From Amycolatopsis sp. GM8 (GTDB taxonomy: Bacteria > Actinomycetota > Actinomycetes > Mycobacteriales > Pseudonocardiaceae): a DNA stretch of 64,000 nucleotides. A model generated the notes under the pieces. That model was not told the DNA's origin. It did not search any database and saw only the letters and a list, made by a program, of their open reading frames with translations. The position numbers and the translations under genes are program-made. Of the stretch, positions 34,001-43,362 are shown one piece after another (position 1 is the first letter of the stretch; every line of letters begins with the position of its first letter). The stretch lies in contig NZ_JAJKFK010000001.1 of assembly GCF_021653975.1 (NCBI RefSeq), positions 1,084,863 to 1,148,862 of the forward strand, in the 5' to 3' direction.

Positions 34001-34104
34001 TTGGTACCAATCCGACCGGCAGCCACGGCGATCCGCCTCGCGTAGGTCGGCTTCCGGCTGGTGGGGTCGGCCTACTTTCGGTCGGATTGGTACCGGCCGG
34101 TACC
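34001..34104. promoter_or_regulatory. paired operator-like palindromes upstream of the enoyl-CoA hydratase operon
   Basis: GGTACCAATCCGACC (34003-34017) and GGTCGGATTGGTACC (34080-34094) are exact 15-bp reverse complements 62 bp apart. Within them, TTGGTACCAA (34001-34010) is itself a perfect palindrome, and GGTACCGGCCGGTACC (34089-34104) is a perfect 16-bp palindrome. GGTCGG recurs between them. The arrangement suggests two binding sites for one dimeric regulator, possibly with DNA looping over the promoter of the minus-strand operon. Confidence 0.6.
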
Positions 34105-34917
34105 TTACCGCCGTCGCGCGAAGAAACGGTCGCCCGAACGCTCCAGGATCAGGTCCTGGTCGAACGTCTTGGACAGGTTCTCCGCCGTCAGCACATCGTC
34201 GATCAACCCGGCCACCACGGCGCGCCCTTCGCGGAGCAGCAGCGCGTGCGTGAACCCGGGCGGGATCTCCTCGACGTGGTGGGTGACCAGCACGATCGCC
34301 GGGGCGTCCGCGTCGAGCGCCAGCGTGGACAGCCGCGCGACCAGGTCCTCGCGGCCGCCGAGGTCGAGGCCTGCGGCCGGCTCGTCGAGCAGCAGCATCT
34401 CCGGGTCGGTCATCAGCGCGCGGGCGATCAGGACGCGCTTGCGCTCGCCCTCGGACAGGGTGCCGAAAGTGCGCTCCGCGAGATGCGTCACACCCATCGC
34501 GCCGAGCAGCTCCATCGCGCGGTTCACATCGAGGGTGTCGTAGTGCTCGCGCCAGCGGCCGACGACCGCGTACCCGGCGCTGACCACGACGTCACGGACC
34601 ATTTCGTCGCCCGGCACGCGGCTCGCGAGGGCGGCGGAGGTGAAGCCGATGCGGGGCCGCAACTCGAAGATGCTGACCTTGCCGATCCGTTCGCCGAGCA
34701 GGTCCACGGTGCCGGTGGTGGGGTGCAGTTCGGCGGCCGCGAGGCGCAGCAGCGTCGTCTTGCCGGCGCCGTTCGGGCCGAGCACCACCCAGCGCTCATC
34801 CAGCTCGACGGCCCAGTCCAGGCCCGCGAGCAGGTCGTTGCGGCTACGGCGGACCCCCACGCCCGACATTCGCACCACGAGGTCGTCAAGGTTGTCCGTC
34901 TCGCTCACGAGGCCCAT
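34105..34917 (-). CDS. ABC transporter ATP-binding protein (stand-alone)
   Basis: The 270-residue ATPase has Walker A LGPNGAGKTT, the signature TLSEGERKRVLIARAL (SEGER in place of SGGQ), Walker B EMLLLDEPAAGLDLGG and the switch His in VLVTHHVEEIP. The SEGE signature and the lack of a permease gene are typical of ModF/YlmA-like iron- or molybdate-type ATPases, whose transport partner is often unknown. ATG 34917 is chosen as the residue just ahead of the conserved region; a GTG two codons later is possible. It is divergent from the cysteine dioxygenase leader. Confidence 0.88.
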   Translation of the reverse strand: MGLVSETDNLDDLVVRMSGVGVRRSRNDLLAGLDWAVELDERWVVLGPNGAGKTTLLRLAAAELHPTTGTVDLLGERIGKVSIFELRPRIGFTSAALASRVPGDEMVRDVVVSAGYAVVGRWREHYDTLDVNRAMELLGAMGVTHLAERTFGTLSEGERKRVLIARALMTDPEMLLLDEPAAGLDLGGREDLVARLSTLALDADAPAIVLVTHHVEEIPPGFTHALLLREGRAVVAGLIDDVLTAENLSKTFDQDLILERSGDRFFARRR

Positions 34918-35002
34918 TGTGGTGGTCGATGGCCGTCCTCGTGGCAGCGGCCCCGTACCAGAACGTGAGACGTCACCAGGGGTAGCGGGAACCCGTGGCA
35001 GG

Positions 35003-35167
35003 ATGCGCTCTGTGCACACCGCCACGCCTTTGCCGCCCACCGGGCGCTTCTGGCGTGACCGCACCGTGGATCTGCTCCTCGTCGCCTCGTGCGGCTGTAC
35101 CGGTCCGTCGACCGTGTCCAGTCCCCGAGTTCGTCCAGGAGCCTTCGTTGACCCAGTCTGTCCTTGA
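35003..35167 (+). CDS. Cys-containing leader peptide ORF upstream of cysteine dioxygenase
   Basis: A 54-codon frame (ATG 35003) contains VDLLLVASCGC, close to the RRxVDLLRVxSxxC pattern of the short leader peptides found before sulfur-metabolism genes in actinobacteria, and a last Cys codon two codons before its stop (DPVCP). Its 3' end overlaps the ribosome site and first codons of the cysteine dioxygenase gene (35137-35167). Ribosome stalling at Cys codons would therefore affect access to that start, giving cysteine-dependent control. Shorter in-frame GTG starts are possible. The LVASC string also resembles a lipobox, but the rest does not fit a lipoprotein. Confidence 0.5.
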   Translation: MRSVHTATPLPPTGRFWRDRTVDLLLVASCGCTGPSTVSSPRVRPGAFVDPVCP

Positions 35168-35687
35168 TATCGAGATCCACCCGCACCTGTCCGATGTGCT
35201 CTCGCACGATCTGCTCACCCCGTCGCGTCTACTGTGGACATCCGGGCAGCTGGCCGCGCTGACCGGGTACGTCGCGCGTGAGCTGGCGGGTCCGCTGCGC
35301 GAGATCCTGCATTTCGACACCGACCAGCGCTGGTGGGCGCGGCTCGCGCTGACCGACGGTGTGGAGCTGTGGCTGCTGTCGTGGCTGCCCGGCCAGCAGA
35401 CGAAGCCGCACGACCACGGCGGTGCGTCCGGCTCGTTTTCCGTGCTGCAGGGCGAACTGACCGAGCAGTACCGCTATCCGGGCCGCCCGATCCGGACTCG
35501 CACGCACGGCGCCGGAGTCGGCATCGGGTTCGGCGCGGGCCGGGCACATCAGATGACCGGCACCGGTACCGAGCCGGCCGCGAGCGTGCACGCGTACTCG
35601 CCGCCGCTGGTGCCGACTCGCGAGTACCGGTCGCTGGCCGACGTGCCCAGCGAGATGCCGTCGCTGCCAGTGATACTGAGCCGGTGA
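35148..35687 (+). CDS. cysteine dioxygenase
   Basis: The 179-residue cupin enzyme oxidises cysteine to cysteine sulfinate with molecular oxygen and ferrous iron. The iron ligands are in the cupin motif KPHDHGGASGSFSVLQGELTE (His pair in PHDHGG) and a later His in GAGRAHQMTG. TTG 35148 is chosen because AGGAG lies 6 nt upstream; no ATG or GTG fits. Its start overlaps the 3' end of the leader ORF and its stop overlaps the rhodanese gene (GTGA). Together they form a sulfur-catabolism operon. Confidence 0.88.
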   Translation: MTQSVLDIEIHPHLSDVLSHDLLTPSRLLWTSGQLAALTGYVARELAGPLREILHFDTDQRWWARLALTDGVELWLLSWLPGQQTKPHDHGGASGSFSVLQGELTEQYRYPGRPIRTRTHGAGVGIGFGAGRAHQMTGTGTEPAASVHAYSPPLVPTREYRSLADVPSEMPSLPVILSR

Positions 35688-36073
35688 CCATCGAAGATGT
35701 TCTCGCCGAGGCGCGGGCCAAGCTGAAGCGGGTCGACCCGGCGGGCGCGCGGGCGCTGCAGGAGCAGGGCGCGCTGATCGTGGACATCCGGCCCGAGTCG
35801 GACCGCGCGGCCGAGGGCGAGATCCCCGGCTCGGTGCCGATCGAGCGGATCCACCTGGAGTGGCGCCTCGACCCGGCCGGCTCGCACCGCCTGCCCGAGG
35901 CGCGAGCCGACCGGCCGGTCGTCGTGGTGTGCAACGAGGGTTACGCCTCGAGCCTCGCCGCCGCCGATCTGCTGCGGCTCGGCGTGCGGGCGACGGATCT
36001 CGACGGCGGTTTCCGGGCGTGGGCGGCCGCGGGGTTGCCCATGCGGCAAGGCCCGACGCCCGCGGCTCCCTAG
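35684..36073 (+). CDS. rhodanese-like sulfurtransferase
   Basis: The 129-residue single-domain rhodanese has the entry motif LIVDIRPESDRAAEGEIPGS and the active-site loop VVVVCNEGYASSLAAADLL, where Cys (about residue 86) carries the persulfide. This loop, CNEGYAS, fits a six-residue thiosulfate-type site. It starts at GTG 35684 inside the cysteine dioxygenase stop, so both are made together; it may handle sulfite or persulfides arising from cysteine oxidation. Its stop shares a CTAG with the convergent SDR gene. Confidence 0.9.
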   Translation: MTIEDVLAEARAKLKRVDPAGARALQEQGALIVDIRPESDRAAEGEIPGSVPIERIHLEWRLDPAGSHRLPEARADRPVVVVCNEGYASSLAAADLLRLGVRATDLDGGFRAWAAAGLPMRQGPTPAAP

Positions 36074-36768
36074 GCGTAGAAGAGGCTCGGGTCCTTCGCC
36101 AGCGAGGCCTTGACGTGGGCGCTCCAGTCGTCGAAGACCACTTCGATCTCGCCCGCCTCGACCGAGTCCAGCGCGGCCTTGGCGACGTCGGCGGGATCAC
36201 CCATCGGACCGTCGTAGTCGATGCCCTTCACCATGTCCGTGTCCGCCACCCCGAGGTGCACGCCGGTGACGAACGTGCCCTGCCCGGCCAGCTCCAGCCG
36301 GATCGCGTTGGTCAGGTTCCATTCGGCGGCCTTGGCCGCGGCGTAGGCATTGGCTCCGTCGAAGGCGAACCAGGACAGCGCGGACAACATGTTGACGATC
36401 GCCCCGCCGCCGTTCGCCGCGAGGACCGGCGCGAACGCCCGCACCATGCCGAGCGTGCCGAAGTAGTGCGTGTCCATTTCGAGGCGGATCTTGGCGAGAT
36501 CCCCGGTGACGAGGTTGGTGTTCGTGCTGGTACCGGCGTTGTTGACCAGCAACGTCACGTCCTGCGCGACGGCCGCCACCTCCGCGATCGACGCCGGGTC
36601 GGTGATGTCGAGCCGCAGCGCCTCGACGCCGGGGACGTCGATGTGTTCCGGGTTCCGCGCGGTCGCGTAGACCTTCGCCGCGCCGCGTTGCACCAGCACC
36701 CGTGCGAACTGCCTGCCGATGCCGCGGTTCGAACCGGTCACGAGAGCGACCGAGCCCGGGATCTTCAT
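36070..36768 (-). CDS. short-chain dehydrogenase/reductase
   Basis: The 232-residue SDR has the nucleotide motif VTGSNRGIGRQFARVL, NNAG in TLLVNNAGTSTN, a catalytic Ser in SALSWFAF and the YxxxK pair in NAYAAAKAAEWN. Arg39-type residues after strand 2 (TARNPEH) suggest NADPH preference. Substrate unknown. GGAGGAAG precedes ATG 36768. It is divergent from an AraC-family gene, which may control it. Confidence 0.92.
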   Translation of the reverse strand: MKIPGSVALVTGSNRGIGRQFARVLVQRGAAKVYATARNPEHIDVPGVEALRLDITDPASIAEVAAVAQDVTLLVNNAGTSTNTNLVTGDLAKIRLEMDTHYFGTLGMVRAFAPVLAANGGGAIVNMLSALSWFAFDGANAYAAAKAAEWNLTNAIRLELAGQGTFVTGVHLGVADTDMVKGIDYDGPMGDPADVAKAALDSVEAGEIEVVFDDWSAHVKASLAKDPSLFYA

Positions 36769-36865
36769 GCTTCCTCCAAATCAGTCGGGACACCAGCCAC
36801 CATATGAAGCACGAAGGTGCACAGACGATGATCGGAAAGCACGCAAAGATATCCGTTTGTCTCAC

Positions 36866-36884
36866 ACGCGACGTATCGTTGCGT
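36866..36884. promoter_or_regulatory. palindrome abutting the araC-family start codon
   Basis: ACGCGACG (36866-36873) and CGTTGCGT (36877-36884) form an inverted repeat with one mismatch around TAT, one base before ATG 36886. No ribosome site is present and TATCGT (36874-36879) could be a -10 box for a leaderless message, so a protein bound here would directly block the promoter. Confidence 0.4.
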
Positions 36885-36885
36885 C

Positions 36886-37830
36886 ATGGATCTTCTTGCT
36901 GACGTACTCGCGGTGGGCGGCGTGCGCGGCACCGCCGCGAGGCGGGTCGAAGCTGCCGAACCATGGGGAATGTCGTGGCGCGAAATCTCGGGCGCGGCCT
37001 TCTACGCGGTCACCGCCGGGACCACCTGGCTCGGCCTGCCGGACAGCCCGCCACGGCAGCTCCTGCCCGGCGACGTCGTGCTGCTGCCGACCGGCACCGG
37101 GCATACGCTCACCAGTGACCCCGCGGGCGCGGCGAACCCGTGCGAGCACATGGCGCCCGCGCGGACCCCGTCCGGGGAAAAGGTCATGCGGTTCGGGTCC
37201 GGCGAGACCACGACGCACATCCTCGGCGCCTGCTACGAATACGATCCCGCCGTCTCGACGCAGATCATCACCCTGCTGCCGGAGATCGTGCACATCCGCG
37301 CCGACAACGGCGCCACCTGCCTCGACGACACCGTGCGGCTGCTGGCGCGCGAGCTGGCGCATCCGCAGCTCGCGGCCTCGGTCGTGCTCGACCGGCTGGT
37401 GGACATCCTGCTCATCCAGCTGCTGCGGGTGTGGCTCGCCGGGAAACCCGCCGAGGCGCAAGGGACCTGGCTGGGCGTGCTCGACGATCCGCTCGTCGGC
37501 GTCGCGATGGCCAAGGTGCACGAGGATCCCGCGCGCGCCTGGACCACCGAGACGCTCGCCGCGGAGCTGGCCGTGTCACGGGCCACGCTCTCCCGGCGTT
37601 TCCTCGTCGTGGCCGGGGAAACGCCCGGCGCCTACCTCACGCGCTGGCGCATGGACCTCGCCGCGATCCGGCTCCGGGACACCGACGACACGCTGGAGAG
37701 CATCGCCCACTCCGTCGGCTACACGTCGGTCTACGCGTTCAGCCGGGCGTTCCGGCGGGCCCGCGCCCAGGCACCGGGCCGGTACCGCGTCGAGGCGCGA
37801 GCCGCCGCCCAGGACCGCCAGGTCAGCTAG
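36886..37830 (+). CDS. AraC-family regulator with cupin_6 domain
   Basis: The 314-residue protein has an N-terminal cupin_6-type ligand domain (about 1-190, with QLLPGDVVLLPTGTGHTL) and a C-terminal AraC domain with two helix-turn-helix units (TETLAAELAVSRATLSRRFL and ESIAHSVGYTSVYAFSRAFR). This group often controls a neighbouring oxidoreductase gene, here the divergent SDR. The ligand is unknown. It overlaps the 3' end of the alpha-glucan phosphorylase gene by 8 nt. Confidence 0.92.
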   Translation: MDLLADVLAVGGVRGTAARRVEAAEPWGMSWREISGAAFYAVTAGTTWLGLPDSPPRQLLPGDVVLLPTGTGHTLTSDPAGAANPCEHMAPARTPSGEKVMRFGSGETTTHILGACYEYDPAVSTQIITLLPEIVHIRADNGATCLDDTVRLLARELAHPQLAASVVLDRLVDILLIQLLRVWLAGKPAEAQGTWLGVLDDPLVGVAMAKVHEDPARAWTTETLAAELAVSRATLSRRFLVVAGETPGAYLTRWRMDLAAIRLRDTDDTLESIAHSVGYTSVYAFSRAFRRARAQAPGRYRVEARAAAQDRQVS

Positions 37831-40351
37831 CCAGTACCACCTTCCCGAGTTCGGCCGGCGTGGCCAGCAGCGGGTGTTTCGGCAGCACACGCACGGTGTA
37901 GCCGATCGAACCGGCGTGCGGCAGCTGCAACGTCGCCGTGAACAGCCCGATCCCGGCCGGCTCCATCGGCACCGTCACCGGTTCCGACAGGTCGTCGCTG
38001 TCGCCGACCCGGCCGACCACCACCTGAACGTCCACTTCGGACACATCGAGGCCGGCGAGGTCGATGCGCGCCTCCACGTGCACCTCGCTGCCGACGACGA
38101 GCCGGTCCGCGGTCAGCTCGCTGTCGAAGATCTTCACCTGCGGCCACACCGTGTCGATCCGGGTGCGGTACTCCGCCAGCGACTTGGCGCCCTGGTAGGA
38201 ATCCCTGGCCGCGGCCTCGACCGTCGACGCCGCCGGGTGGTAGCTGGTCTCGACGTACTCGCGGACCATTCGCGACGCCTGCACGCGCGGGCCGAGGGTG
38301 TCGAGCGTGTGCCACACCATCGACATCCAGCCCTTCGGCACCCCGTTCCCGTCGCGGTCGTAGAACAGCGGCGCCACCTGCTGCCCGAGCAGGTCGTACA
38401 ACGCGGCGGACTCCAGCTCGTCGCGCCGCAGCGGGTCGCGGATGCCGTCGGCGGTGGGGATCGCCCAGCCGTCGCTGCCGTCGTAGCACTCATCCCACCA
38501 ACCGTCGCGAATGGACAGGTTGAGCCCGCCGTTGAGCGCCGACTTCATGCCCGACGTGCCACACGCCTCGAGCGGCCTGGTCGGGTTGTTGAGCCAGACG
38601 TCGCAGCCGCGGTAGAGGTAGCGGGCCATCGACATGTCGTAGTCCGGCAGGAACACCATGCGGCGCCGGACCGCCGGGTCGTCGACGAACCGGACGATCT
38701 GCTGGATCAGCTGCTTGCCACCCTCGTCGGCCGGATGCGACTTGCCCGCGACGACGATCTGGATCGGACGGTCGTCGTCGAGCAGCAGCGCGCGCAGCCG
38801 TTCCGGGTCGCGCAGCATCAGCGTCAGCCGCTTGTACGTCGGCACGCGGCGGGCGAACCCGACGGTCAGCACGTCCGGGTCGAACACCGTGGTGATCCAG
38901 CCCAGTTCGAGCGCCGACGCGCCGCGCTGCAGCCAGGAGTCACGGACGCGGCGCCGCACCTCGGCGACCAGTTTCTGCCGCAGATCGCGGCGCAGCGCCC
39001 ACAGTTCCTCGTCGCTGACGCCCTGCTGGCTGGGCAACTGCCCCTTGTGGCCCCATTCCTTGTGCTTGCCGCCGAGCAGCGCGGTGAGCTCGCGGGCGAC
39101 CCACGTCGGGCCGTGCACGCCGTTGGTGACCGACGTGATCGGCACCTCGTCCTCGTCGAACCCGGGCCACAGCCGCCCGAACATGCGGCGGGACACCCGG
39201 CCGTGCAGCCGCGAAACGCCGTTCGCGCGCTGGGCCAGCCGCAGGCCCATGTGCGCCATGTTGAACATGCCGGGGTTGTCCTCGGCGCCGAGCGCCAGCA
39301 CGCGCCGCGTCTCGATCCCGGGCAGCAGCCGCCCGTCGCCGAAGTAGTGCTGCACGAGGTCGACCGGGAACCGGTCGATGCCCGCGGCGACCGGGGTGTG
39401 CGTGGTGAACACCGTGCCCGCGCGGACCGCGGACAGCACCTCGTCGAAGCCGAGGCCGTGCTCGCCGATGATCTCGCGGGCGCGCTCCAGGCCGAGGAAC
39501 CCGGCGTGCCCTTCGTTGGTGTGGAACACCTCGGGCTGCGGGTGCCCGGTCAGCTCGCAGTACCGGCGCACCGCGCGCATCCCGCCGATCCCGGCGAGGA
39601 TCTCCTGGCGGATCCGGTGGTCGGCGTCGCCGCCGTAGAGCCGGTCGGTGACCCGGCGCAGGTCCTCGTCGTTCGCGTCCACGTCGGTGTCCAGCAGCAG
39701 CAACGGCACCCGGCCGACGTGCGCCTGCCACACCTGCGCGTACAGGTCGCGCCCGCCCGGCATGGCGACGTCGACCAGCACCGGCTCGCCTGCCTCGTCG
39801 GTCAGCAACTCCAGCGGCAGCGCGTTGGGGTCGATCACCGGGTAGTGCTCCAGCTGCCAGCCGTCGAGCGACAGGCCCTGGCGGAAGTAGCCCGCGCGGT
39901 ACAGCGGGCCGACGCCGATCATGGGCACACCCAGGTCGGACGCGGCTTTGAGATGATCGCCGGCGAGCACGCCGAGGCCGCCGGAGTAGTTCGGCAGCGC
40001 TTCGTGCACGCCGAACTCCATGCAGAAGTACGCGATGGCGGCCGGCCCGTCGGCCTGTTGTTCCTGGTACCAGCGCTCCTCGGTGAGATAGCGTTCCAGA
40101 TCCTCCGTCGCCGCGCGGGCTCTGGCCAGGAAGTCCTCGTCGCCCGCCAGCTCCGCCAGCCGGGCCGGGGCCACCCCGAGCAGCATCCGCAGCGGGTCCT
40201 TGACCCGGCGGAACAGCTCGTCATCCATCGAGGCGAACAGGTCCCGGGTCGGCGGATGCCAGGTCCAGCGGAGGTTGGTCGCCAGGGCACGCAAGCCGGC
40301 CAGCGAGTCCGGCAGGCTCGCGCGCACGGTGAACCGACGGATTGCTCTCAT
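37823..40351 (-). CDS. glgP: alpha-glucan (glycogen) phosphorylase with DUF3417 N-terminal domain
   Basis: The 842-residue enzyme cleaves alpha-1,4-glucans with phosphate to glucose 1-phosphate. It is of the short bacterial type that begins with DUF3417 (about residues 10-120, ATNLRWTWHPPTRDLFASMD). Catalytic regions are visible: PNYSGGLGVLAGDHLKAASD, HTNEGHAGFLGLERAR, FTTHTPVAAG, and the PLP/phosphate region VWLNNPTRPLEACGTSGMK; the PLP lysine belongs to the latter. Substrate may be glycogen or maltodextrin. It ends within the 3' end of the AraC-family gene. Confidence 0.94.
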   Translation of the reverse strand: MRAIRRFTVRASLPDSLAGLRALATNLRWTWHPPTRDLFASMDDELFRRVKDPLRMLLGVAPARLAELAGDEDFLARARAATEDLERYLTEERWYQEQQADGPAAIAYFCMEFGVHEALPNYSGGLGVLAGDHLKAASDLGVPMIGVGPLYRAGYFRQGLSLDGWQLEHYPVIDPNALPLELLTDEAGEPVLVDVAMPGGRDLYAQVWQAHVGRVPLLLLDTDVDANDEDLRRVTDRLYGGDADHRIRQEILAGIGGMRAVRRYCELTGHPQPEVFHTNEGHAGFLGLERAREIIGEHGLGFDEVLSAVRAGTVFTTHTPVAAGIDRFPVDLVQHYFGDGRLLPGIETRRVLALGAEDNPGMFNMAHMGLRLAQRANGVSRLHGRVSRRMFGRLWPGFDEDEVPITSVTNGVHGPTWVARELTALLGGKHKEWGHKGQLPSQQGVSDEELWALRRDLRQKLVAEVRRRVRDSWLQRGASALELGWITTVFDPDVLTVGFARRVPTYKRLTLMLRDPERLRALLLDDDRPIQIVVAGKSHPADEGGKQLIQQIVRFVDDPAVRRRMVFLPDYDMSMARYLYRGCDVWLNNPTRPLEACGTSGMKSALNGGLNLSIRDGWWDECYDGSDGWAIPTADGIRDPLRRDELESAALYDLLGQQVAPLFYDRDGNGVPKGWMSMVWHTLDTLGPRVQASRMVREYVETSYHPAASTVEAAARDSYQGAKSLAEYRTRIDTVWPQVKIFDSELTADRLVVGSEVHVEARIDLAGLDVSEVDVQVVVGRVGDSDDLSEPVTVPMEPAGIGLFTATLQLPHAGSIGYTVRVLPKHPLLATPAELGKVVLAS

Positions 40352-40410
40352 GAGGAGCGACGATATCGGTTAGTGTCCGGGGGTCGAAGCGGATCAGGGA
40401 GCGGGTGGGG

Positions 40411-41832
40411 ATGCGCGCAGGGGGGCTGGCCGTCGCGATGGCCGGGGTGCTGCTGCTCGGGCTGACGGCATGTGGCGCAGATGACACCGGATCCGCGGCC
40501 GGTTCGGTCGCCGGGCTGCCGATCACGCACTTCCAAAGCGGCCTGCGCGCGAATGCCCCGGCGCCGAACCTCGACGTGGAAAATGCCAGTGACGACGAGG
40601 CGGACAAGCTGGCGACGTCGACCATCGCCGATGTCGAGGACTACTGGTCCAAACAGCTGCCCGACGACTTCGGGGTCGCGTTCGAGCCGGTGAGTTCCCT
40701 GCTGTCGTACGAGTCGAACGGCGAGAACCAGCAGAACGGCTGCGGGAACACGCGGAAGAACGTCAACGCGTTCTACTGCGGGGCGGACGATTCGGTCGCG
40801 TGGGACCGGGGTGTGCTGCTGCCCACGATGATCCAGCAGTTCGGGCCACTGTCGGTGGTGACGGTGCTGGCGCACGAGTTCGGGCATGCCGTGCAGTTCC
40901 GGCTGGGGGCCAAGGCGGGTATCACCCGCAGCACGCCGACGATCGTGAAGGAGCAGCAGGCGGATTGCTTCGCCGGCAGCTACTACCGGTGGGTTGTCGA
41001 GGGGAACAGCAAGTACTTCACGGTTTCGACGGCGGAGGGCCTGAACGCGGCCTTGTCGTCGTTGTTCCTGGTGCGGGACAGCGCGGGCACGTCGGCCGAG
41101 GACCGGCAGGCACATGGGACGGCTTTCGACCGGCTCTTCGCATTCCAGTTGGGCTTCGAAAAGGGCCCGAAGGACTGCGCGGCGATCACCATGGACAACA
41201 TCAAGCCGCGCCTGGTCGAGCGGCCGTTCGATCCGGCGGACAAGAACGAGGGCACGATCGACATCGACGATCAGACGGTCGGCCTGCTGAAGGAAAGCCT
41301 GGACGCCGCCTTCGCCGGGGCCAAGGCGCCCGCACCCGAGATCGTCGACGGCGGTGGAACCTGTCAGGGCGGGCCGGCTACGCCCCCGGCGTCGTACTGC
41401 CCGTCGGACAACACGGTCAACATCGACCTGAACACACTGGCGGAACTGGGCCGGCCGGTGGACCAGAGCGGTGAATTCACGGGCCAGTCCAACGGCGGTT
41501 TCGGTGACTTCGCGGCCCTGTCGGAAATCGCTTCACGGTATGCCCTGGCGATTCAAAAGGGCGTCGGCGCTTCCCTGGACAATGCGAATGCCGGTTTGCG
41601 GACAGCATGCCTGGTAGGTGCCTGGGCCGCGGCGGCGAACAACCTGCAAGACACGAAACTGCGTCTTTCAGCAGGGGATTTGGACGAGGCCATCTCGGAC
41701 CTACTCCGCCCGGACAGCCTCGTCGCAGCGGACGTCAACGGAAAACGCGTCGATGCCGGCTTCACCCGAGTCGAAGCCATGCGGACAGGCTACCTACAAG
41801 GCTCCACCCCCTGCACCAAACAATACGGCTAA
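40411..41832 (+). CDS. neutral zinc metallopeptidase-like lipoprotein
   Basis: The 473-residue protein starts with a lipoprotein signal (LLLGLTACGADD, lipid Cys at about residue 21). The central part has a zinc-peptidase site LAHEFGHAVQFRLG (HEFGH) with a following EQQADCFAGSYYRW, as in the YpfJ/Zn_peptidase_2 group, whose substrates are unknown. Several cysteine pairs (NGCGNTRKNVNAFYCG, GGTCQGG, SYCPSD) could form disulfides outside the cell. ATG 40411 follows a GGGAGCGGG region; GTG 40405 is an alternative. The last third has more A and T than neighbouring genes. Confidence 0.85.
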   Translation: MRAGGLAVAMAGVLLLGLTACGADDTGSAAGSVAGLPITHFQSGLRANAPAPNLDVENASDDEADKLATSTIADVEDYWSKQLPDDFGVAFEPVSSLLSYESNGENQQNGCGNTRKNVNAFYCGADDSVAWDRGVLLPTMIQQFGPLSVVTVLAHEFGHAVQFRLGAKAGITRSTPTIVKEQQADCFAGSYYRWVVEGNSKYFTVSTAEGLNAALSSLFLVRDSAGTSAEDRQAHGTAFDRLFAFQLGFEKGPKDCAAITMDNIKPRLVERPFDPADKNEGTIDIDDQTVGLLKESLDAAFAGAKAPAPEIVDGGGTCQGGPATPPASYCPSDNTVNIDLNTLAELGRPVDQSGEFTGQSNGGFGDFAALSEIASRYALAIQKGVGASLDNANAGLRTACLVGAWAAAANNLQDTKLRLSAGDLDEAISDLLRPDSLVAADVNGKRVDAGFTRVEAMRTGYLQGSTPCTKQYG

Positions 41833-41925
41833 GACCCACCACAAAAACCGTCAAACCGCCACCCGGCAACAAAACGCAACAACAACCCCAGCCCACCCAC
41901 ACCTCCCCCAACCCCGATAGAAAGC
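41833..41925 (+). other. C/A-rich, G-poor tract after the metallopeptidase gene
   Basis: For about 90 bases after the stop codon the plus strand is dominated by C and A with very few G and T (for example CACCACAAAAACCGTCAAAC and CCCACCCACACCTCCCCCAA). Such unstructured C-over-G stretches are what Rho uses to load, so this may be a Rho-dependent terminator for the metallopeptidase message. It also directly precedes the cloverleaf element. Confidence 0.4.
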
Positions 41926-41929
41926 CGCC

Positions 41930-42024
41930 CTAGCGGTTGGCACGTCGTGTCAAGGGTGACCGCGCCAGCGGTCATCGCGATAGCGACGCCGAAGGCGCCC
42001 TTGATACGACGTGCCAACCGTTAG
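41930..42024 (+). ncRNA. fully paired cloverleaf palindromic element (RNA or repeat)
   Basis: Arms 41930-41956 and 41998-42024 pair over 27 positions: 25 Watson-Crick pairs and two positions that are G-U pairs in a plus-strand RNA (41933 and 41949). The 41 nt enclosed are used up by three abutting hairpins: TGACCGC-GCCA-GCGGTCA (41957-41974), TCGC-GATA-GCGA (41975-41986) and CGCC-GAA-GGCG (41987-41997). No base outside the three small loops is unpaired. It has no tRNA features. It may be a structured RNA, a dispersed palindromic element or a cruciform-forming site; the type given is a best guess. Confidence 0.5.
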
Positions 42025-42059
42025 ACGATCGGCGATCGGGGTGGGCTGCCGGCTTTTAC

Positions 42060-42099
42060 GTCGCGCGGAGCGCGACGCCCCTCGCGCGGAGCGCGAGGG
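42060..42099. repeat. twin hairpins with GGA loops
   Basis: GTCGCGC-GGA-GCGCGAC (42060-42076) and CCCTCGCGC-GGA-GCGCGAGGG (42079-42099) are two perfect hairpins with the same core and identical 3-nt loop, 2 nt apart, followed by the A-rich string AAAAAGATCAAAAGAT. They look like duplicated copies of one short palindrome. On either strand they could act as strong RNA stems. Confidence 0.6.
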
Positions 42100-42149
42100 A
42101 AAAAGATCAAAAGATGCCTCGCCGGCGGGCAGGCTCCAGGATGACTGAC

Positions 42150-42170
42150 CCCAAGGGATCTCACCTTGGG
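42150..42170. repeat. small perfect hairpin
   Basis: CCCAAGG (42150-42156) and CCTTGGG (42164-42170) pair with a 7-nt loop. It lies between the twin GGA-loop hairpins and the large nested palindrome and is part of the same run of structured non-coding DNA. Confidence 0.45.
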
Positions 42171-42179
42171 TGGGTGGTT

Positions 42180-42335
42180 GAGTTGGGTGGTCATCCCGTC
42201 GCCTGCGGTTTTCGAATATCACTTTTCCTCAGAGCCGCAAGCTTTGGTCTCTCGGCTGCCCGCCGGGCAGGAAGGTTGCGGCCCTGACGAAAAGTGATCG
42301 TTCCTGTGTCAGGCGACGGGATGACCACCCAACTC
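42180..42335. repeat. 156-bp nested palindrome
   Basis: The outer arms 42180-42205 and 42310-42335 are exact reverse complements over 26 bp. Inside them ATCACTTTTC (42218-42227) begins a 15-nt arm pairing, with one mismatch, to 42284-42298; then GCCGCAA (42234-42240) pairs with TTGCGGC (42276-42282); and CTGCCCG-C-CGGGCAG (42256-42270) forms an inner hairpin. The stems are strictly nested around one axis. No open frame with a ribosome site crosses the element. Function unknown. Confidence 0.65.
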
Positions 42336-42393
42336 GGGCCGTGGGCATTCGCCCCGGCTCTGCCGTGGGTGTTCGCTCTCGTTCCGTTGCCTT

Positions 42394-43362
42394 TTAAAAC
42401 AGTGCGGAGGCTAGGTCCCTTCGGGCTTTTGCCACCCGTTCGTCCGCTGGGTCGAACAGGTCGAAGAGGCCTACCAGGTGTTGCCGTACGCGGTTACGGT
42501 CGTCGCCGAAGGTGCGGCGGATTGTGGTGATCAGCCTGGCGAAGGCGTCCTCGATCTTGTTCTGTGCCACTTCGAAGTCCGCCGCCGCGAGTTGGGCGTC
42601 CAGGTCGCCCGGGTCGGCGTCGGCGCGGGCCACGGCTGACGGATCCGCCGACTCGGCCCTGGCGGCGAACCGGACCTGGGTGAGCGCGGCCTTCGCCAGC
42701 TCGTTCGCCGGTTCGACGTCGAGGATCCGCTGGTAAGCCGCCTCGGCACCGGGGTAGTCACCGCGCTCGAAGGCGTCTTCGGCCTCGGTGAAGCGCGGGT
42801 CGTCCGGCTCCTCGACCTCTTCCCCTCCGCCGGGCTGTGCGTCCCGGATGCTGGGCAGTTTGTCCTTGAGCGCGTCCAGCAGCGCGTTGAGCCACTTCTT
42901 GATCTCGGGTTCCGGCAGGGCACCCGCGAAGGCGTCGACCGGCTGGCCACCGGCGATCGCGACCACCGTCGGGATGCTCTGCGCCCCGAACAGCTGCGCG
43001 ATCCGCGGGTTCGCGTCCACATCGACCTTCGCCAGCACCCAGGCACCGCCGGCCTGCGAAGCGAGCCGCTCCAGCACCGGGCTGAGCTGCTTGCACGGCC
43101 CGCACCAGTCGGCCCACAGGTCCACGATCACGAGCTGCTGCAGGGAACGGTCGACGACCTCGGCCTGGAAGGAGGCCTCGGTGACCTCGATGATCGCGCC
43201 GCCGGCGGCCGGTGCCTGCTGCTGCGGGGACCCCGACGTAGAGGTGGCCGGCTGCTGGCGTGCGGCGTCCGCGCGTGCCTTCAGCGCGGACAGATCGACC
43301 GCACCCGACAGCGCGGCCGACATGGCTGCTGAGTTCGCTGCTGATCCGCGTGGGTTCGTCAC
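42394..43362 (-). CDS. thioredoxin-domain tetratricopeptide protein (YbbN/CnoX-like)
   Basis: The 322-residue protein has a thioredoxin domain (about residues 55-165) with an intact active site [16 protein letters not shown] and cis-Pro in SIPTVVAI, then a TPR-like region (about 190-320, for example [20 protein letters not shown]). This order matches YbbN/CnoX, a redox-chaperone that works with chaperonins in proteobacteria; unlike the E. coli protein the CGPC cysteines are present here. The N-terminal 50 residues are Ala/Gln/Ser-rich. GTG 43362 is used; an ATG about 13 codons later is possible. Confidence 0.88.

Follow-up and report, generated by a model that had tools for sequence, protein, structure and literature searches.

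The cloverleaf at 41930-42024 of the window (the whole 64,000-nucleotide stretch of Amycolatopsis sp. GM8 DNA analysed here) is the core of a repeat module, A, that belongs to a real, widespread and strand-specific structured repeat family of the REP/MITE kind, although it departs from REP/RAYT elements in each feature tested and resembles MITEs only in part. A is an Actinomycetota repeat family in which the four-way-junction fold, but not the letters, is kept by compensatory change. The reading that we favour, at roughly even odds, is that A is a strand-specific, DNA-level end structure of a small mobile element family.

As plus-strand RNA, 41930-42024 has a minimum free energy fold with a 27-pair stem and three abutting hairpins with loops GCCA, GATA and GAA, just as the initial annotation had described. 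Its stability (-74.3 kcal/mol, z -12.6) was equalled by none of 200 shuffles. Plus-strand DNA parameters gave the identical fold (z -12.1), and the fold of the minus strand is weaker (-64.5, z -10.3). Two pairs of the 27-pair stem read G-U when the plus strand folds but A-C when the minus strand does, also as first described. The extent given in that annotation was incomplete, as it missed the leader, an outer stem, two small hairpins and a second large palindrome at 42180-42335. In the outer stem, 41912-41918 pairs with 42035-42041 across an asymmetric internal loop. An alignment of copies from the same genome shows homology far past the cloverleaf, such that module A comprises an A/C-rich leader, the outer stem and the cloverleaf; the conserved A unit has 134 model positions and 44 pairs. 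What is repeated is a composite of ~500 bp, running from the leader through the outer stem, cloverleaf, two small hairpins and a linker to the second palindrome, with module A as its left half and module C (42116-42335) as its right half. The features of the locus are as follows.

40405..41832, plus strand: 475-aa gene that ends, at its stop codon, ahead of the element (context)
41859..41911, plus strand: A/C-rich, G-poor 5' leader of the composite, conserved in most of 20 aligned own-genome copies
41912..41918, plus strand: left arm of the outer stem, CCCCGAT, pairing with 42035-42041 (81.4% of cells paired, 33 copies)
41930..42024, plus strand: core of the A module, a four-way junction with a 27-pair closing stem and three hairpins (fold and covariation)
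42035..42041, plus strand: right arm of the outer stem, ATCGGGG (pairing in aligned copies)
42059..42099, no strand assigned: two small hairpins joining A to C, TCGCGCGGAGCGCGA twice (own-genome alignment)
42100..42115, plus strand: purine-rich linker AAAAAGATCAAAAGAT; a similar linker precedes C also behind another A variant
42116..42335, minus strand: C module, second palindromic repeat (own-genome copies; minus-strand mismatch rule)
42336..42357, plus strand: short tail GGGCCGTGGGC...GCCC, partly conserved, right edge of the composite (copy alignment)
42394..43362, minus strand: convergent gene of 322 aa whose translation contains WCGPCK, a thioredoxin motif (context)

The loops of the small linking hairpins vary, with TCC or TTC replacing GGA or GAA in some copies. 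The long hairpin of C (42180-42335) folds with z -13.2 as minus-strand DNA and -12.3 as plus-strand DNA. The cloverleaf itself lies in non-coding DNA, as first proposed, within a 561-base gap between convergent genes that have their stop codons at 41832 and 42394. Simple consensus scans of 41800-42420 found no terminator-like site (hairpin plus U tract) and no sigma-70-like promoter; an intrinsic terminator was rejected on the lack of a U-tract hairpin, in agreement with the earlier remark that the shape is not that of a terminator. No Rfam family reached its gathering score anywhere in the window, and for that reason a known RNA family was also rejected. At eight loci of distant A copies only tRNAs reached gathering score, and a lax setting gave sub-threshold matches only.

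A BLAST search of the Amycolatopsis sp. GM8 genome with 41920-42034 gave 20 distinct A places at 77-100% identity, counted from the first 20 rows, the later rows being antisense or partial. Model searching added 10 further places, where C stands behind a variant A with a shorter tip. In the nine that were read, the outer stem, internal loop and long inner stem are of the kind seen in the other copies, but the apical loop is simple; the tenth, L179, was identified by the model alone. C occurs at 35 full or nearly full places, and the totals for the genome, window counted, are about 30 A and 35 C modules. The alignments of the variant-A and C copies, and of the Actinomadura A copies considered below, were fitted to models. 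The dispersed palindromic element that had been one option in the initial annotation is thereby borne out, the BLASTN and covariance-model searches proposed there having returned many dispersed copies with compensatory changes. Five copies (L043, L046, L058, L076 and L084) lie ~90-270 bases from contig ends; A/C repeats at contig ends may break assemblies, so that copy numbers may be underestimated.

A covariance model of A (R1), built from 33 sequences of this genus and one other, matched 247 of 390 genomes of the family, representing 36 of 46 genera, as well as 82 of the 394 genomes in a sample of the class and 10 of the 346 in a sample of the phylum. The model of C (R2) matched 78 of the 390 family genomes. 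Two of them, G001 and G004, have a C match and no A match, a distribution which indicates that A and C are separate families travelling together here. Scanning named genomes for the exact core pattern gave at least 114 stretches, and among the 80 loci listed all but one have Actinomycetota names. A core match at L267 lies on a contig binned as an Acidobacteria metagenome-assembled genome and may reflect contamination or transfer. The exact core pattern was absent from viral contigs and a phage collection gave no match, on which grounds a phage origin was rejected. Plasmids gave two weak Streptomyces matches of the core; the one core-matching Streptomyces plasmid viewed has no annotated mobile gene in its 8 kb.

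The pairing of A is maintained across copies. In 33 A sequences, an alignment that omits L001 (an own-genome copy identical to the window over this region), 94.8% of cells are paired, compared with 31-48% in slid controls and 88.6% after shuffling. Both sides have changed in 19 of the 44 pairs, with 86 such cells against a shuffled mean of 18.4. Among 47 distinct distant sequences, aligned by fitting to the model and including one wrong-strand row (L117:172), both sides have changed in 36 of 44 pairs, with 407 cells compared with 116 after shuffling. The hairpin loops and internal-loop motifs of A are conserved across genera.

The mismatches indicate which strand folds, since a hairpin that matters on one strand alone tolerates G-T there and not A-C. 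In the A inner stem the 33 sequences have 84 G-T, 14 G-G and a single A-C mismatch; without the 31 G-T contributed by one fixed G-U column the ratio is 53 to 1. The rule fails in the other A helices, mostly the outer stem (9 G-T, 15 A-C), giving 93 G-T and 16 A-C over the whole structure. Distant copies give 110 and 19 over the whole structure, with L117:172 excluded and the strand chosen by the model, a possible bias; the orientation of own-genome copies was set by sequence homology, independently of the fold. These counts are not of independent events, as related copies inherit the same mismatch. C, read on the strand of A in this genus, has 36 A-C, 35 C-C and no G-T mismatches; outside the genus its two strands score alike. 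The inner-stem counts and their mirror in C indicate plus-strand folding for A and minus-strand folding for C. The earlier suggestion of selection on a plus-strand transcript thus stands as to the strand (84 to 1 in the inner stem) but not as to the transcript: the rule shows strand-specific folding rather than transcription, given that tandem copies lie either way, that the tabulated loops are mostly GNA triloops with no UUCG, and that no promoter- or terminator-like site was found. In themselves, strand-specific mismatches fit RNA and single-stranded DNA alike and do not separate the two.

Loops were tabulated in the 94 of 167 A copies that fold to three hairpins, leaving aside 20 without the core pattern and 53 that fold to one or two hairpins. 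The resulting 282 loops comprise 227 C(GNA)G, 25 C(GNNA)G and 3 CTTG, the last an undercount; there are only 2 GNRA loops and no UUCG tetraloop. Being shared by descent, the loops are not independent evidence.

The position of the copies relative to host genes was assessed with genes called by our own codon-usage script rather than a standard caller. In the genome under study the genes on either side of A converge in 19 of 28 usable contexts (29 in total, window excluded), and in A. bartoniae (G016) in 12 of 20. Outside the genus the figure is 21 of 68 usable contexts (of 117), with 12 A. bartoniae loci dropped from the other-lineage set because they come from the same genome as G016. C, on its own strand, has convergent contexts in 22 of 31 and 8 of 10 cases in the two Amycolatopsis genomes, respectively. 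Where the neighbouring genes are in tandem, A is sense to the preceding gene 5 times and antisense twice in the genome under study, 4 and 3 times in G016, and 16 and 21 times in other copies; C on its own strand gives 3 and 4, and 1 and 1, in the first two. As tandem contexts show no orientation rule and convergence outside the genus is limited to 21 of 68, the strand rule seems to be a property of the element rather than of an adjoining transcript. A strict 3'-UTR rule was rejected on the tandem contexts. Within the genome under study the gene preceding A is nevertheless on the strand of A in 24 of 28 contexts; for C, taken on its own strand, this holds in 25 of 31, at a median of 27 nt past the called stop codon, and with both modules so close behind stop codons a secondary role in 3' ends is possible in Amycolatopsis.

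In some lineages two inverted A modules flank larger units, with the 3' side of each folding strand pointing outward. G536 carries four such pairs, forming units of about 0.8 kb, and G546 four spanning 1.4-2.7 kb; the assignment of these two genomes to Streptomyces was made indirectly, through a G695 contig matching Streptomyces sp. NRRL S-87. Six pairs from Actinomadura span 2.4-3.5 kb with arms of ~190 bases, and all six flank a DUF222 gene. The outward polarity holds in all 14 pairs. Other arrangements also occur: three A copies alike at L219, one facing three at L220, two alike at L265, and a pair plus a third copy at L413. No obvious target-site duplication was seen by eye at the four G536 units. 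The cargo of the G546 pairs is unrelated where identified (an NmrA-like with an APH-family gene, GntR, NUDIX, and one without a family). At the centre of the 0.8-kb unit at L402 is a palindrome, ATGGATGACACTT...AAGTGTCATCCAT, reminiscent of module C motifs.

Candidate partner genes were sought beside A. DUF222-type genes are near A at 19 loci among 166 contexts, in Actinomadura, Labedaea, Herbihabitans and A. acidicola, with A placed ~160-500 nt from the called DUF222 start codon and its 5' side toward the gene. Pfam identified DUF222 in all four Actinomadura proteins scanned, taken from four of the units, and HNH in one of the four, weakly and below cut-off. No DUF222 match was found in the A-bearing genomes G000 (Amycolatopsis sp. 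GM8 itself), G016, G007, G006 and G014, and its absence from A-rich genomes led us to reject DUF222 as a general mobiliser. The genus has 61 DUF222 matches, and A adjoins one of the 30 loci fetched; when 30 loci (two without a called gene) were scanned for a strong fold upstream of the DUF222 gene, only L341, which has A, stood out. The Y1 (TnpA_REP) transposase, PF01797, matched 5 of 14 control genomes and nothing in the genome under study, and a RAYT-driven REP was therefore rejected for this genome. With regard to a possible integron attC or other site recombined as a folded strand by a tyrosine recombinase, a cluster of 11 loci has integrase-like genes, named by eye, close to A. In one family A stands beside a small gene at seven loci (L205, L208, L209, L210, L212, L213 and L216), and an integrase-like gene, again by eye, is present at six of them, so that A looks as though it were borne by an integrative element.

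Comparison of orthologous sites shows that A copies are gained, lost and homogenised. The window's own site was compared by eye with 18 other genomes of the genus. The A-C unit is complete there in G016, degenerate but oriented alike in G006 and G007, and represented in G009 by an A in the opposite orientation. In G001, G003, G004, G008, G011, G012 and G018 the site is a gap of 11-237 bases without the element, most of these gaps holding a simple hairpin or palindrome as judged by eye. The neighbouring gene is not convergent in G002, G005, G010, G013 and G017, and the second flank was not found in G014 and G015. Another site, from a second genus, had a match in each of 80 genomes; of the 30 loci examined, 7 have A within the fetched stretch, four others (L428, L431, L436 and L439) keep the outer parts without the hairpin, by eye, and the other 19 show by eye no A trace in ~330 bases each (L422 being shorter). 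These four hairpin-less relics, with L094, L085 and L089, look by eye like the footprint of hairpin deletion.

For six of 20 G016 sites a flanking gene is also found at one of 41 stretches of G000, in four cases on both sides, so the elements at such sites can persist for long. Three orthologous A pairs are 77.5, 74.6 and 73.1% identical, compared with a cross-genome mean of 74.5%, and copies within a genome average 93.3% in G000 (16 copies) and 81.6% in G016 (20 copies); the window copy was represented in this comparison by its identical paralogue L160. That orthologues are no closer than other cross-genome pairs, with copies alike within each genome, points to concerted evolution or to repeated replacement at the same site. 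Orthologous C pairs (79.5, 78.7 and 76.8%) exceed their cross-genome mean of 70.6%, partial copies included, so the case for homogenisation is weaker for C. In a comparison of window 34085-40766 with L155, an A-C unit in G016 stands at the place where the window, with the flanks shared, has two extra genes. Identical 3.9-kb copies in G757 (L221 and L222) were rejected as evidence of mobility because the match reaches the contig ends and may be an assembly overlap.

We propose that the cloverleaf, as module A, would be the left end of a small, non-coding, dispersed element. A would work in the form of a single-stranded DNA hairpin rather than within a host mRNA, and would be exposed during replication, repair or transfer. 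A putative trans-acting protein may recognise it and move or copy the unit without obvious target-site duplication, and gene conversion between copies would keep A alike within one genome. In this genus A is joined to C, which folds on the opposite strand, and convergent gene ends may be enriched because insertions there are least harmful. DUF222 proteins are candidates for the enzyme only where they are present. We lean to DNA over RNA in view of the loop types, the absence of any rule for gene orientation, the relics that have lost the hairpin and the arrangement in inverted pairs, and the option of a single-strand DNA substrate in the initial annotation fits somewhat better than its option of a structured regulatory RNA. 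Several observations stand against a mobile end. The genome under study and G016 are rich in copies without DUF222, the former also without Y1, and the strand rule fails in the outer stem. The enrichment at convergent genes in Amycolatopsis, with each module on the strand of its preceding gene, is like that expected of paired 3'-end RNAs, and the unrelated G546 cargo together with the mixed orientations at L219, L220, L265 and L413 may mean that some pairs are independent insertions. The long persistence possible at sites shared by G016 and G000 and the weaker case for homogenisation of C also count against it. A broader proposal, which we offer tentatively, is that A and C represent a new class of actinomycete mobile element, with one-strand single-stranded DNA cloverleaf or hairpin ends bearing telomere-like GNA loops, a putative trans-acting enzyme that leaves no target duplication, cargo when two ends face outward, and uniformity kept by gene conversion.

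The main rival is structured RNA: A and the opposite-strand C might be 3'-end RNA structures of convergent genes, acting as an exonuclease barrier or in termination, or A might be a small RNA. We regard this as a serious but somewhat unlikely alternative. The excess of G-U over A-C in the A inner stem and the mirror rule in C count in its favour, as does the placement of both modules behind same-strand genes (24 of 28 and 25 of 31, median 27 nt after the called stop), and the element-free orthologous sites often hold a simple hairpin or palindrome by eye. Rho sites are rich in A and C, and the A/C-rich leader resembles one in sequence. Tandem contexts, on the other hand, follow no orientation rule, convergence drops to 21 of 68 outside the genus, and 41800-42420 has no promoter-like or U-tract site; a set of 282 loops with no UUCG and 2 GNRA, and the lack of an Rfam family at gathering score in the window and at eight distant loci (sub-threshold only at the lax setting), also argue against RNA.

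There are three further explanations. Passages in PMC4513846 and PMC7205883 describe Streptomyces telomere overhangs as folded single-stranded DNA with GCA, GGA and CTTG loops, the GCA and GGA loops being closed by sheared G-A pairing. A resembles the overhangs so described in its packed single-strand hairpins, its loops (GNA and some CTTG) and the outward 3' polarity of the folding strand in inverted pairs; on this reading A would derive from folded 3' termini of linear replicons and might serve as an end structure to which telomere proteins bind. Unlike telomeres, the A copies seen are internal and dispersed, and R1, with E allowed to reach 10, has no match within the initial 600 bases of three linear plasmid records, among which pSV2 alone was seen to begin with typical telomere sequence; a telomeric derivation seems quite improbable, and the likeness of the loops is a lead. 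A little less improbable is that A is part of DUF222 (REP13E12-like) homing elements whose gene was lost in this lineage. The consistent placement of A near DUF222-type genes at 19 loci in 166 contexts and the inverted arms around the gene in all six Actinomadura pairs are in its favour, to be set against five A-bearing genomes with no DUF222 match, the single adjoining locus among 30 fetched from 61 genus matches, and the weak HNH match in one of four proteins. The least likely of these, and very improbable, is a passive palindrome, an inverted repeat that hairpin-templated repair keeps perfect and that is itself neither functional nor mobile. Palindromes are prone to intrastrand correction and the hairpin-less relics show instability, but templated repair treats both strands alike and leaves the opposite strand rules of A and C unexplained, along with the dispersal and the loops and internal-loop motifs conserved across genera.

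Among known systems, REP, BIME and REPIN sequences associated with RAYT are dispersed extragenic palindromes without coding capacity, often in opposite orientations and with strand-specific hairpins, and A is similarly dispersed, extragenic, palindromic, strand-specific and non-coding. MITEs are short, non-coding, dispersed and palindromic, as are A and C, and the inverted arms in Streptomyces and Actinomadura may add to this likeness. A and C differ from MITEs in their strand-specific fold and may differ in two further respects: no target-site duplication was obvious by eye at the four G536 units and, as regards terminal inverted repeats, the two halves of the Amycolatopsis composite are unrelated and not copies of each other. 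REPs differ in size, being 20-40 bp according to PMC3733652, compared with ~130 nt and a four-way junction for A, and the Y1 transposase that accompanies REP/RAYT has no PF01797 match in the genome under study. A word search of the main text of PMC3733652 found none of six actinomycete terms. A passage of PMC10589994 names REP13E12, HNH endonuclease and DUF222 repeats together; DUF222 genes lie beside A in several lineages, but A-rich G000, G016 and G007 in this genus have none. Searches of an open-access library brought up no description of the A repeat.

A combines strong covariation and presence in 247 of 390 family genomes and in other actinomycete families with no Rfam gathering-score match. 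Many of these bacteria are antibiotic producers. As a mobile-element end, A would open a way to the enzyme involved and make selection acting on folded single-stranded DNA accessible to study; as RNA, it would constitute a new, abundant RNA family. The opposite strand rules of A and C make this choice testable by strand-specific transcription. Finally, a variable repeat type, GCAAACTCACC / GGCAAACACGCC, lies directly to the left of many A copies (L001, L004, L005, L009-L011, L014, L015 and L017, and also L099 in G009) and resembles a third repeat module.
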